NCBI GenBank assembly: GCA_016906335.1
Contig: JADEYG010000004.1
Span: forward strand, 967,001 to 1,031,000
Reading direction: 5' to 3'
Source of the DNA: Novakomyces olei
Lineage: Eukaryota > Ascomycota > Novakomycetes > Novakomycetales > Novakomycetaceae
DNA: 64,000 nucleotides
Position numbers and translations under genes: made by a program. The first letter of the stretch is position 1; every line of letters starts with the position of its first letter. The notes beneath the pieces were generated by a model. It was not told the origin of the DNA. It was given only the letters and a program-made list of their open reading frames with translations, and ran no database searches. This document shows positions 20,260-44,830 of this stretch, one piece after another.

Positions 20260-22100
20260 ATGAGGACAGCAGCGCTTTTGTGTCTGGCTGCATCGTGTGT
20301 AAGCGCGCTCTATACTGCAAAGGGCCCAGTTACTATATTGGAAGCAGACACGTTTAATAGCACAGTCAACGTGCGTGACCAGGTGACTATAGTCGAGTTT
20401 TTTGCGCCCTGGTAAGCCGGAAATGAAGTGTGCTCTCGCTAACTATTTAGGTGTGGCCATTGGTAAGTGTTTCAATATGATCGAGATGTTATTCATTTTA
20501 CTATGCTTTTATTTATTTATTTAATTTAATTTTTACATTTTTACTAAATGCTCATTGTAGTCGAGACCTGGCACCAACCTATAAAAGGCTTGCGGCTGAT
20601 GTTGGGGGCCTCGTGAACGTGGCAGCAGTCAACTGCGATAATAATCTCAATCGGGCATTATGCTCCAAGTATGAGGTACAGGGCTTTCCTACCATCAAGG
20701 TCTTCCATGCCAATACTGCTGGAAAGTCTTCGGTCATGGGTATGCTTTTCAGTTTTATTTATCGAATATTAGGGTCAATTTTGATCTCTTAATTTTTTCA
20801 TTGCCTCTTTATCACTTTCTCTTTTATACATTTTGATTGATTTGTATATGTACTTTTTTTGTTTTAAAGTCACCTGAAGCCTAGCCGTTTTATATTAATG
20901 CACTAAATGTGCGGCTAACTAGTAGACTACAATGGCCCCCGCACGGTGAAAGGTATTGCTGAATTTGCCACAAAACTCATACGCAACCGGGTGAAGCGTA
21001 TAACTTCCGACACATTGCAATCATTCCTGGACGATAAGGTATTATATTCTCCAATGTCAATTTGTTTTCTGGTCAACCAGCCTTGTATTTTCATTTATCT
21101 CATATTACGCTGTCCGCTTTGTTTATCAACAGTACCCTTATCAGTTTCCTTTTTATTTGTATCCTGCCTTGATCGGTCGTTTGTCAATTCAGCCGCTAAT
21201 TATAGGCATCCGTACATAAATATATCTTGTTCTCTAACAAGGGCTCAACAAGCTCTACTTACAAAGCACTGGCCCTAAAATACCCATCTCTTCCTTTTGC
21301 TATGGTGCGAGACAAGGAAACAGAAGCAGTATCTAGATTTGGTATCGACACTTTCCCCTCTTTTATTGTCTACGATAGAGAGTCGGATAAAGCGGAAAAG
21401 TTTTCTGGAGGTAATCAGGACTAATTGCAAAGACCTTGCTGACTCTATAGATTCATTTTCAATACAATCGCTCCAGGAATTTGTAGAATCTTCTGGTGTT
21501 GGCAAAGAGAGTCATGGTCAATCGAGAAAGGTCGCCAGTGATCGTACAGATAGTACGGCAAAAAGTCAACAAAAACCTTCTAAACCGTCTCCAGAAGCCT
21601 CTCCAGAAGCCTCTCCAGAAGCCTCTCCAGAAGCCTCTCCAGAAGCCTCTCCAGAAGCCTCTCAAGAAGCCTCTTCAGAAAAGCTATCAAACCACAATCC
21701 AAATGATGCTTCAGATCCTTCTCCAGGATCTTTTCCCAAACCTTTGTCGGAGCCACTGCCAGTCTTGGATGACATGGAACTGCTTAGATCTCATGGGCTG
21801 AAGCTTGTGATGATAGCGGGAACTGATTCCCCTGAAATTTTACGTGATATACGTAAAGCTTTACCCAATGAGGGCTTGAATTCTGTATTTTCTGCCCCGT
21901 TTAATAGTGCAATAGTGGAGTCGCTTTATCCTCAAGGGGAGGGCATTTGTACTGCAATTGCCGTAAATTCACGAAAGCAATGGGCGGTCTGTTTTAGAGG
22001 GGAACCGAAGGATTTAGCGCAATGGACTCAGGATATCGTTCTTGGCCAGTCTTCAAACAAGCGGCATTATTTTGCGAAGAAAGCGCACGACGAACTTTGA
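20260..22100 (+). CDS. MPD1: ER protein disulfide isomerase with one CGHC domain (Mpd1/P5-like)
   Basis: Oxidises and rearranges disulfides of secretory proteins in the ER. Six exons: 20260-20411, 20451-20462, 20561-20739, 20926-21038, 21206-21410, 21451-22100; 436 aa. The N-terminus MRTAALLCLAASCVSA is a signal peptide. The thioredoxin active site WCGHC is split: exon 2 is only 12 nt and encodes most of it. VEFFAPW precedes, and RDLAPTYKRLA and GFPTIKVFHA follow. A second thioredoxin-like domain without CXXC covers exons 5-6. SPEA repeats occupy about residues 235-265, and the chain ends in the retention signal HDEL. The first intron is 39 nt and the fifth 40 nt. The single redox site and tail agree with Mpd1; other single-site PDIs remain possible. 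Confidence 0.9.
21593..21672 (+). repeat. 12-bp tandem repeat (CTCCAGAAGCCT)n in the PDI coding region
   Basis: Six near-perfect in-frame copies encode a run of Ser-Pro-Glu-Ala units, a flexible acidic linker between the two thioredoxin-like halves. Confidence 0.9.
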
Positions 22101-36576: not shown

Positions 36577-37464
36577 ATGGACGCGGTGGAAAGTTTCATA
36601 CAAGACAGTCGGCATCACGATGCGCTGTCTGTCCTTAAAGGGTTTCGAAATGGTTTGTTTTTTACACATTTCAATTAGATCCGTCCTCTAACCGAATGGA
36701 ATAGGGGTGGTTTGTGGGGCTAAAGTGCGGTTTCCACATGCCCTGGTCATGACGCTGCTGCTTAAAAAGGTAAACCTTTTAATTGAGTGTTGCCGGCCTA
36801 ACTAGCAGGGACCGTAAGGTTTATTGTTTATTCTTCTCACTGTAGTCTGCGGCCCAGACTATACAATGTTCTGCGCATGACAAAGAGCCATTCGCTACGA
36901 CTCGGACTGTTTGTTGCACTTTACAAGTCAATTCTTATACTCCTGCAGCGGGGAGCTCGGCGCCATACTATGCTGGCTATTGATCCTTTTGTGGCAGGGT
37001 TTGTTGGCGGAGGTCTGGCCTTTGGCAATTCGAGCGACGTCGTTTCCCAGCAAGTGAGTCTTGACAAAATTGGGGTCATTCTGCGCCGTCCAATATATAT
37101 TGTATAATTTAAATTAAAACAAATGCAATAATTGTACAATTGCTTTTGTTGTTTTAATGCGTTTTAGTGCTGCTGCCAAAGCCTTTGGATTAACACACAG
37201 ATTTGCCTTTACGTTTTCTCCCGAGTCGTGTACGGGGTGGCAGAAAGTGCAGCAGACGCAATGGGTAGAACAGGGACGCAATTTGAGCAATTAAGAAAAT
37301 ACGGCTGGACTCTGTTTGCCGCGCTTATCTGGGGCTCTGTAATGCTTCAATTTGAGTATGACCAGCCTCATATTCACGGCAGTATGCAGAGCTCTATGAT
37401 CTATTTATACCGAAAAAGCAGCCGATGGCGTTCATTTAAAACGCTGATTTGGCACAATGAATAG
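36577..37464 (+). CDS. PXMP4: peroxisomal membrane protein PXMP4 (Tim17-superfamily)
   Basis: Small peroxisomal membrane protein of unknown biochemical role. Five exons: 36577-36652, 36705-36769, 36806-36813, 36846-37053, 37201-37464; 206 aa (human 212). The aligned blocks are LSVLKGFRNGVVCGAKVRFP, PHALVMTLLLKK, LYNVLRMTKSHSLRLGLFV, PFVAGFVGGGLAFG, YVFSRVVYG, WTLFAALIWGSVMLQFEY and SMQSSMIYLY, all equivalent to the human protein in order. Exon 3 is only 8 nt (CAGGGACC); with it the residues KKQGPLRPRL align gap-free with the human sequence. Intron 3 is 32 nt, the shortest accepted in this window. S. cerevisiae lacks the gene. Confidence 0.9.
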
Positions 37465-41204: not shown

Positions 41205-44200
41205 ATGAGTCAGGCTGATATTGCGGCGTACTTTAACAGCATCAGTGATGGTCTGGACACGCATAATTCCGCTGTTGACGATGTGGCAAAACGTATGGAT
41301 CAATATATATGTTTGCGTTTTCAGGTTTTAATTTTAAAAGATTTATCTTCCTTTACTCTCGTCTACAGTTGTGTTCTGACTTTACAGGCATCGAATCGCA
41401 GCCGGGCACTCTTTTACAGTTTATAAAGAACCTGGGTGATTATTTGACAGCAGAGGATGTCACGCTTAGGCAGAATGGTAGGCTGATTGAATACTGGAAC
41501 CGTTGTCGCCTTAAACTGTTTCAAAAAAAAAAAAAGATTTATATTACAATGCTAATACCTTGAAGCTATGAGTATGCTGGCCGATGTGACTGTTCGGCTT
41601 GGAGACGGAACGCTAACGTCTCAGCAAGCCTCTGTCCTTTGCCAGTTTTATTGTGATCGACTGGAAGATGAGGCATGTGTCCCTCAAATCTTGCAGGGCC
41701 TTCAGGCACTTGCGGCCATGAAGTCTCTGCCGCCTTCACAGGCGAGAGACATGTGTCGCGATGTAGTGAATACGGTAGCTATGCCCAATTTCACTCAACC
41801 CGTGAGAAACAAGGTTTTCACTATTGCCGAGACGATTTTACGGCAGCCACGATTTGCGGCTGCCCTCAATACTGAAGCAAATGATGCTATTGTCTCTGGA
41901 ATCGTGGGTATAATGGACGGAGAAAAGGACCCACGCAACCTTTTGCTAGGTTTCCGGCTAGTTGAGCAAGCAGTAACCTGTCTGGATATAAAGGGCCGAG
42001 TTGCTGACGTTTTTGACTGTGTCTTTTGCTATTTTCCTGTCACTTTTCGCGCAGCACCAAACAATAACTCTCTCAAAATATCACCCGACGATCTCAAAAT
42101 CGCCCTCCGCTCTTGCCTTACACGCACTCCTTTTTTTGCGGACTTACTAGTGCCCTCGCTTATTGAAAAAATAAATGCGGCTGCAGTCTCGGTGAAGAAG
42201 GACGCTATCGCTACACTTCAACAGGCTCTGGACCGGTGGCCATCTACGCCCTTTGAGCCGTTTTCTCAGCGAATCTGGAATGGATTAAAGTTCGAATTAT
42301 GGGACAGTACGGATGAGGAGGTCACACTGGCCTCCCTAAACGCTATAACTGGTCTTTCCCGTAATTTGCTGCAAAACGGTGGCTTTCACGCTTTTGCCAC
42401 GGTTGTATGTAACGAGTGTCTTGACCAAATGCGACAGAATAATGCTCCCAGTATTAAAACCTGTGGGGCCACATTAGCGGCAATATGTGCAGCTGGAAAA
42501 CAGGCGCTGGAGACAGTGTCAGCACAGACTCTTCCAAGTATTCTAACGATATACAGTAGTAGTAGAGACATTTTGTCTAAACAAGAGGCAATACTAACTG
42601 CCGTTAATTGTATACTAAACGCAAATGCCTTGCTTTACCCTGAAGCTGAACGGGCGGATGATGCGACAGTACTGGCGCCCTTTGGACAAGAGTTTTTCAA
42701 GACTTTTGCGGAGAAAGTCGTCTCTACCGGTGTGACGGATGATGCTACACGTGTGGTTGCCGTGAAGGGACTGCTTTTCATGCTGAGGGCGCGGCGGATG
42801 CTCGACGAGTCTTGCAGTCGAATGACTATAAAGTTTCTGAGCGAATGTGTAATGTCGCCCAATCGGCCCGTTGGAGCAGAGGCAATGGCGGCGCTGGCTG
42901 AAGTTTCTGTAATTGCTTCTGGCCTTGTGCTTGAAATAGTGCTGCCAATGATGCAAAGTCGGCTGGACGAGATTGAATCTGAAGGTTTTGGTGGAGAGCA
43001 GTCTAGTGAAGAGCAATCAAGTGAAGGACAATCAAGTGAAGGACAATCAAGTGAAGGACAATCAAGTGAAGGACAATCAAGTGAAGGACAATCAAGTGAA
43101 GGACAATCAAGTGAAGGACAATCAAGTGAAAAAAGGCAAGCAAAAGGCGAAAAAGTGTTTAAACGAAATGTAAATGACAGCAGTCTTAGTCTTCAGTACA
43201 GGATTGTTTTGGGGCACATTGCGCGCTTGTGCCGGGCGCGAGCAGTGACACGGACTGTGATTGTTCGTATTGTAAACAAAATTGATAATTTATCTTCTCG
43301 GCAAGTCTTTGACCGTGAAAGCGAGGCAGAGGCTGACGAATTGAAGACTAGATTTATTCACCCGCTCGTGCAGACACTGCAATTAGCGCTAGTGGCCTAT
43401 GAAATAGCGGGAGAGACTGCCGAAATTGCTTATTTTTCTAAAGATATTCTTGCTCACCTGCTGACGCGCTGCATTTTGCCTATTGCGCAGGGCAAAAACA
43501 ACTCTTTGCTATTAGCTGACAGCGTTGTTGGATCCGTGCAGGCAGTATCTATACTCTGCACTCGAAATTTAGACGTTGAACAGCAAAACGAGTTGGCCGC
43601 TAATGCGAACAAACTGTTCCTGGGCCGCTCAATCTCCGAGCTCATTCACGATAAATGGCGTACGCTTGTGGCCAACAAGTTTGCTCCTTTTCATGACAAC
43701 ATGACCAGGGAGGAGTACAGGGCTTTTTCTATCTACATTGCTATTGATGGAGCATTAAGGAAACAAGTCATTAACGCTGTGCCCTTTAACACAGACTTTC
43801 TCGATGCCGTTTTGGCTATCGGCAGACAAGTTCGCCAAGAGCAAATGCAAGGGTCAGATGTATCGCCTTTGCCCGTATTTGAACTATTTGCAAATAGGCT
43901 AAACAAGTGTACCGATGACGCTGGCTTAAGTACGTACTTGAGCGGGCTTTTACCCTCTCTATGGACAAGTGTAGAGCAAAGAGAAGGCGGTGATCAGTTT
44001 GCAATCGACACTATTGCCTGGACGATCAAGAGTCTGAGTTTGCGGGGACAAGTTGAAGCCTTCAATCAGCTTTCAAAGCTTATTGCCAAGCTCGATGGTC
44101 CACAGGGAAAGCAACTGGCACAGTCAACATTGATCGTTTTTGCTAATGATAAACTGCTGTGTAAGGAGAATTTTACCGTGATTAGACTGCTTTTTCGGCA

Positions 44201-44830
44201 GCGGCTGTTTAGTGTTGCCTTCCCGGCTCTACTTGAGCATTTTACTGCTATTACGAGGGCAAAGTCTTTGGCCCATACAGAGGCAAACGGGGACAGAGTC
44301 GGAGAGAGCGAAGCTTCAAGTCATGCTACGCTTAGTGATACAGACCCTTCTGTTGCACGAAGCAATTACTTGATTGTTGTGGCATATTTAGTGGGATTTA
44401 TGCCGATCAATGTTATTCTGCCGAGTCTTGCGCAGCTGCTTCCAATGCTTCTACAGACGTTGGATCTTCCCGAGGCATCGCTAAAATTTGCTGTAGCAAA
44501 TGTACTGACCGCTATATTGGAGCAAGACCCAGAGACACTTTTGAGCCATTTGCCCTCGATACTGCCAAAGTTACTGGATGTAGCCAGCGATTCCCGTCAT
44601 AGTCCAGAGGTATGATATTGGCTGTCTCTTTATTCCTTTACTAACTATATTACCAGCGAGTTCGATTGGCGGGTCTAACCTGCTTGTCTGCGATTCCCTC
44701 GGCATTTCGATCAGACCAGATACAGCCGTACCGTGTAATGATGCAGCAGCAGTTACGCGCTGCCCTGGACGACCCTGCTCGCGCCGTACGGAAACAGGCT
44801 CAGACTTGTCGGCACCACTGGTTCATTTAA
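41205..44830 (+). CDS. MET18: cytosolic Fe-S assembly targeting factor Met18/MMS19
   Basis: HEAT-repeat adaptor of the CIA targeting complex that delivers Fe-S clusters to DNA polymerases and helicases. Four exons: 41205-41292, 41388-41477, 41566-44609, 44657-44830; 1131 aa. N-terminal blocks: PGTLLQFIKNLGDYLTAEDV, then LGDGTLTSQQASVLCQFYCD, and AETILRQPRF. The C-terminal block, completed by the last exon, is RVRLAGLTCLSAIPS and ALDDPARAVRKQAQTCRHHW, the family signature end. Introns are 95, 88 and 47 nt with branch sites TTCTGAC, GCTAATACCTTGAAG and TTACTAAC. The second acceptor is AAG. A Ser-Ser-Glu-Gly-Gln repeat interrupts the helical repeats at about residues 480-520. Confidence 0.92.
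43003..43130 (+). repeat. 15-bp tandem repeat in MET18 coding sequence
   Basis: About eight in-frame copies of AATCAAGTGAAGGAC encode SSEGQ units. Copies are identical in the core, with variant ends, indicating recent slippage. Confidence 0.95.

Follow-up and report, generated by a model that had tools for sequence, protein, structure and literature searches.

Can an exon of only a handful of nucleotides be kept in a fungal mRNA and, if so, where exactly does it begin? The question is raised by a PXMP4/Pmp24-like gene of the Tim17 family at 36577-37464, on the plus strand of the window analysed here, a stretch of 64,000 nucleotides that is part of a 14.3-Mb fungal genome. A preliminary description had placed an 8-nt microexon, CAGGGACC, at 36806-36813 of this window, after CCTAACTAG, before GTAAGG and between introns of 36 and 32 nt. 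The sequence there is exactly as described, the intron lengths are correct provided that TAG serves as the acceptor, and the acceptor, the donor and the next acceptor are closely spaced indeed, all falling within 41 nt. The explanation that we consider very probable is, however, a PXMP4/Pmp24-like gene whose mRNA constitutively includes a 5-nt microexon, GGACC, between introns of 39 and 32 nt.

A PXMP4-like gene with a predicted microexon

Spliced with the 5-nt exon, the gene (Table 1) gives an open frame of 205 amino acids, in which the Pfam Tim17 domain is found with 48.6 bits against a cut-off of 32.7, and which aligns along its length, with 78 identities over 205 residues and a few gaps outside the microexon segment, to a working version of the human PXMP4 sequence. 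The gene name given previously is supported, the placement with PXMP4 rather than Tim17/22/23 being provisional. All the other exons are open frames with GT-AG borders, the end of exon 5 having been misplaced by the ab initio model (to 37381, with spurious further exons). A genome search that scores the best candidates listed five further Tim17 matches, none of which showed a PXMP4-like frame (local scores of at most 39 versus 476 and 348 here), and the locus is, by this comparison, not seen to be a spare copy. No PDB chain matched the protein up to E 1, and we infer a peroxisomal role for it from its family.

Table 1. Coordinates of the PXMP4-like gene and of further predicted microexons (window positions unless a contig or locus is named)
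Feature	Position	Strand	Remarks
Exon 1 (MDAVESF...LKGFRN)	36577..36652	+	ab initio prediction; aligns to the human PXMP4 version used
Intron 1, 52 nt, GTTTGT...CTAAC-9-TAG	36653..36704	+	
Exon 2 (VVCGAKVRFPHALVMTLLLKK)	36705..36769	+	
Intron 2, 39 nt when CAG is the acceptor	36770..36808	+	36 nt with TAG at 36805 instead; donor score 4.90
CTAAC branch-point motif of intron 2, 3 nt before CAG	36798..36802	+	
Tandem acceptor TAGCAG, NAGNAG type	36803..36808	+	acceptor scores: CAG 8.44, TAG 6.87
Microexon GGACC, 5 nt, likeliest form	36809..36813	+	alternative: 8-nt CAGGGACC, 36806-36813
Intron 3, 32 nt, GTAAGG...CTCAC-2-TAG	36814..36845	+	
Exon 4 (LRPRLYNVL...VSQQ)	36846..37053	+	
Intron 4, 147 nt, GTGAGT...TTAAC-3-CAG	37054..37200	+	
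Exon 5 and stop codon (ICLYVFSRV...IWHNE)	37201..37464	+	
Predicted 12-nt microexon GTGTGGCCATTG, thioredoxin-domain gene (20260-22100)	20451..20462	+	CGHC active site; protein ends in HDEL
Predicted 12-nt microexon GCCATCCATTTG, mitochondrial carrier gene (L043)	G000:C7:519435-519464	-	GHPFD signature completed
Malate dehydrogenase, predicted first exons of 26, 5 (GTCAG) and 19 nt	L048:1441-1955		glycine-rich NAD-binding loop

The reading frame calls for some such exon. Removing 36770-36845 as a whole leads to a stop after 92 residues, which bears out the earlier claim that the frame is lost without the tiny exon, and keeping both introns leads to a stop 11 codons after KK. The preliminary description had left room for a different in-frame connection of exon 2 to exon 4, and such connections do exist on paper: 94 in-frame, stop-free joins can be drawn (32 single introns, GC donors included, and 62 double ones), the 5-nt and 8-nt solutions among them. 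None of the others, however, matches the protein as closely as the 5-nt solution, which scores 181 against the human PXMP4 version used, followed by 170 for the 8-nt solution and 168 for the next. The best of the 94 solutions agrees with a homology-blind model on an internal exon of 5 nt (or 8 nt), that is, within the 15 nt at most that make a microexon. On each side it is flanked by a canonical intron that has a branch point, GTAAAC...CTAAC-TAG-CAG upstream and GTAAGG...CTCAC-TG-TAG downstream. Introns of this size are normal here: among 177 predicted introns, 23 do not exceed 40 nt, the shortest measuring 30 nt. Frame, splice signals and protein match thus support the presence of a microexon between exon 2 and exon 4, as originally proposed.

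The probable length of the predicted microexon

The acceptor region reads CCTAAC-TAG-CAG-GGACC-GTAAGG, with two acceptors 3 nt apart, and the choice between them sets the length of the exon. If the TAG ending at 36805 were the acceptor, the mRNA would hold the 8-nt exon and the protein one extra Gln, a reading that we regard as unlikely in spite of its being in frame, having a canonical YAG and ranking second of the 94 joins by protein score. The CTAAC motif would then abut the acceptor triplet at a spacing of 0 nt, which occurs in only one of the 138 training introns, and the model resorts to a weaker motif 19 nt away; a spacing of 3 nt, which the acceptor at 36808 provides, is the one found most often (36 of 138). 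When CTRAC motifs were simply counted, 11 of 60 lay at 3 nt, 12 of 60 at 4 nt and 1 of 60 at 0 nt.

The same preference is seen with the gene finder, an order-4 semi-Markov splice and coding model that is blind to homology and was trained on the window together with 20 stretches of 10 kb from its contig, 264 kb in all. It picked 36809-36813 at all four intron penalties tried; when CAG was forbidden, it took the 8-nt exon instead at a loss of 1.4 nats, and the loss was 2.8 to 5.9 nats when both acceptors were forbidden. The 8-nt form also requires a one-residue insertion: KKGPL can be aligned to RNGSL of the human protein without a gap when the exon has 5 nt, but not when it has 8. The gap-free match to human PXMP4 claimed earlier therefore holds for the GPLRPRLYNVL segment and fails over a longer alignment, to which the 8-nt form adds one Gln. 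The Pfam Tim17 score does not separate the two lengths (48.6 bits for 5 nt versus 48.5 for 8 nt). On these sequence criteria the exon is probably 5 nt long (36809-36813) and not 8, the length originally given.

Readings that dispense with the microexon

We see very little probability in the removal of one long in-frame intron, for example the 179 nt of 36770-36948, which would need no microexon and would cost 36 residues of the 5-nt form. On splice signals alone, with no coding score, this intron takes first place, ahead of the microexon, when the penalty is 12 or 13.5 and second place when it is 10.5, and it could occur as a minor isoform; however, it removes GPLRPRLYNVL...LLQ, a segment that aligns to the human PXMP4 version used, and it loses at every penalty tried once the coding score is added. 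Among the GT single-intron alternatives, the one that matches the protein best reaches 44.4 bits with Tim17, as compared with 48.6 bits for the 5-nt form.

It is just as improbable that the locus is a pseudogene or carries an assembly error, in which case a single 76-nt intron, 36770-36845, would be followed by a frame broken by a real or artefactual indel. Good outer sites for such an intron are present, but the 5 nt missing from the homology match fit precisely into the space from a good acceptor to a good donor and supply the expected Gly, and both the intact remaining exons and the lack of a second PXMP4-like frame at the other five listed Tim17 matches speak against decay. Finally, complete removal of the region in two steps, as a stwintron or through a zero-length recursive exon, can practically be dismissed: AG and GT do abut at 36817-36820, and removal of 36787-36818 followed by 36819-36857 stays in frame with a protein score of 168, but the splice signals sum to 13.75 versus 23.57 for the 5-nt solution, and removing 36770-36845 in full breaks the frame.

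Chance expectation and controls

How often the signals of such a microexon would come together by chance was counted with the outer sites fixed. An internal set of acceptor, exon and donor had to keep the frame and to combine a CTRAY branch point with a GTRNG donor, a length of 5 or 8 and the Gly codon in place. In 50,000 dinucleotide shuffles the full set arose twice; with the locus itself excluded, it was found in none of the window's 127,725 tiles and in 1 of the 527,725 tiles of the 264 kb, numbers to be read in the light of the tiles overlapping and of the criteria having been written post hoc, with the site already seen. Dropping the length and Gly requirements raised the counts to 80 of 50,000 shuffles, 29 of 127,725 window tiles and 265 of 527,725 tiles of the 264 kb.

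For training, the gene finder used predictions of its own, and it over-predicts tiny exons, whose length distribution is roughly flat and looks like noise. Since so many noise-like tiny exons are predicted, an ab initio microexon on its own is not evidence. The PXMP4 exon ranks 7th of 15 candidates by the score lost on forbidding its acceptor (the 8-nt form can replace it) and 14th of 22 by its weakest intron. Versions of the gene finder with lax penalties degenerated, those with plain codon usage under-predicted, and neither kind was used.

Patterns for the microexon architecture were searched genome-wide. CTAACN{1,8}YAGN{1,14}GTAAGT gave 4 matches versus 26 in the reversed control, and CTAACN{2,5}YAGN{1,13}GTAAG gave 13 versus 37; the same pattern gave 28 versus 36 with a GTATG donor and 14 versus 29 with GTGAG. 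The microexon architecture is unenriched as a pattern and proves nothing alone. Two identical GTGAG-pattern matches, G000:C11:6714-6736 and G000:C12:6903-6925, lie at nearly equal distances from the starts of their contigs and perhaps belong to a duplicated subtelomere.

Further predicted microexons in housekeeping genes

At four of the 13 GTAAG-pattern loci (PXMP4, a thioredoxin-domain gene, a mitochondrial carrier gene and malate dehydrogenase) the gene finder placed a tiny exon. The other nine comprise three antisense to a predicted gene, four with no predicted gene and two in a gene without a tiny exon; the three GTAAGT-pattern loci besides the thioredoxin-domain gene showed no microexon. 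Among the remaining tiny-exon candidates in the 264 kb (the lists of 15 and of 22, minus the two in the window), no motif was recognised by eye.

The thioredoxin-domain protein has, by eye, a signal-like start, and its FAPWCGHC is completed by the predicted 12-nt exon. This exon is the top of 51 in-frame solutions and the sole one reading FAPWCGHC; the score used for this ranking has no per-intron penalty and so favours two introns, and the penalised gene finder also chose the same exon. With it, the Pfam Thioredoxin domain scores 98.0 bits; without it, 70.4. The exon begins with GT, such that a donor, GTGTGG, arises anew at the junction once the first intron has been spliced out; a splice from this donor would delete the active site in frame (the third-best solution for this gene). 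The gene also carries in-frame tandem repeats in its coding sequence (SPEA units), as does a predicted MMS19 gene at 41205-44830 of the window, plus strand (SSEGQ units).

In the mitochondrial carrier gene, a predicted 12-nt exon between introns of 81 and 32 nt completes GHPFDLVKVRLQ; it is the best of 20 solutions and raises the score from 195.5 to 214.6 bits (for a 293-aa part). In malate dehydrogenase, the GTCAG exon and the 19-nt exon complete GASGGIGQP in the best of 46 solutions, no other of which contains the motif; it gives 154.8 bits with Ldh_1_N versus 143.4 for the runner-up (236-aa part); here the gene finder had proposed a 9-nt exon that was wrong by homology and was replaced by hand with the 5 nt. 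These three further homology-supported microexons, all of them predicted, would make the 5-nt exon of PXMP4 less of an isolated oddity.

One could speculate that this compact ascomycete uses the inclusion of its 5-12-nt exons, which would carry housekeeping motifs (in PXMP4, the CGHC of the ER thioredoxin-domain protein, the GHPFD of the carrier and the glycine-rich NAD loop of malate dehydrogenase), as on/off switches, a proposal that we consider doubtful. Skipping a 5-nt exon would break the frame, and skipping the 12-nt thioredoxin-domain exon would yield an in-frame protein without its active site.

Proposed route of splicing

From the splice signals, the frame and the protein match that can be read off the DNA, we infer the inclusion of GGACC, its constitutive use and the order in which its introns leave. 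The exon would supply a Gly codon and two bases of a Pro codon, thus joining LLLKK to LRPRLYNVL, and its inclusion is probably constitutive because skipping it, or retaining intron 2, truncates the protein. As 5 nt would be too short for the splicing machinery to assemble on both sides simultaneously, the 39-nt and 32-nt introns would be taken out one after the other, by intron definition; the upstream TAG might give rise to a minor form in which the exon has 8 nt and the protein an additional Gln. The authors of a study on plant microexons similarly argue for an exon too small to let both neighbouring introns be processed together, so that one of them waits (PMC8831610). According to another paper, ascomycete introns are mostly short, and recognition is held to proceed by pairing across the intron itself (PMC6616335), and the 'challenge for exon definition' of the preliminary description was accordingly overstated, since ascomycetes with short introns are thought there to use intron definition.

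Meaning and comparison with known systems

Gene finders and read mappers alike can easily overlook exons of 5 nt, with the result that such genes appear broken. Several of them in a small genome with short introns would offer a simple system for studying the ordered splicing of near-adjacent introns, and would also allow one to ask whether essential motifs placed on skippable microexons are regulated. By a 970-aa part of its Rpb2, the fungus is closest to fission yeast (PDB chain 3h0g, 1945 bits), ahead of the next chain at 1699 bits, a budding-yeast chain marked ORF YOR151c at 1649 and mammalian chains at about 1398; an ascomycete is therefore likely, perhaps one of the Taphrinomycotina. In the open-licence PMC literature, no microexon in a Taphrinomycotina genus was found among the matches listed.

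A close parallel is Fusarium CYP621A, with a 1-nt exon, 20 orthologues and RNA reads in two species (PMC12940212): there, too, an ultra-short fungal exon keeps the frame in a conserved motif and was deduced from homology first, although the PXMP4 exon is 5 nt long and a prediction from one genome. MPC1 has a 4-nt exon that is constitutive and of a length not divisible by three, as proposed for PXMP4, but in an animal gene and from a minigene study (PMC9929638). Plant small microexons of up to 15 nt belong to the same size class, and their flanking introns compete, both not being spliceable at once; unlike the sequence-predicted PXMP4 exon, they amount to 2,398 cases with RNA support in 10 species (PMC8831610). 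Among ascomycetes, the Xlr2 microexon of Trichoderma virens is included in a glucose-dependent manner, whereas inclusion in PXMP4 would be constitutive (PMC11121469), and the likewise tiny, 15-nt exon II of Aspergillus niger rtnA is kept via consecutive splicing by intron definition, but adjoins a stwintron and is skipped in some transcripts (PMC6616335). The P450 genes of Phanerochaete chrysosporium similarly have tiny exons between small introns, the shortest being 6 bp (PMC1184071), with an 8-nt one in a conserved motif of CYP5141A1 (PMC12940212); these form a gene family of a basidiomycete, in contrast to the housekeeping genes of a compact genome described here (PMC1184071, PMC12940212). 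Fungal microexons down to 1 nt are thus already published, and the probable PXMP4 case joins them; what is less usual, in our judgement, is to find a few predicted microexons in the signature motifs of housekeeping genes within one small genome.
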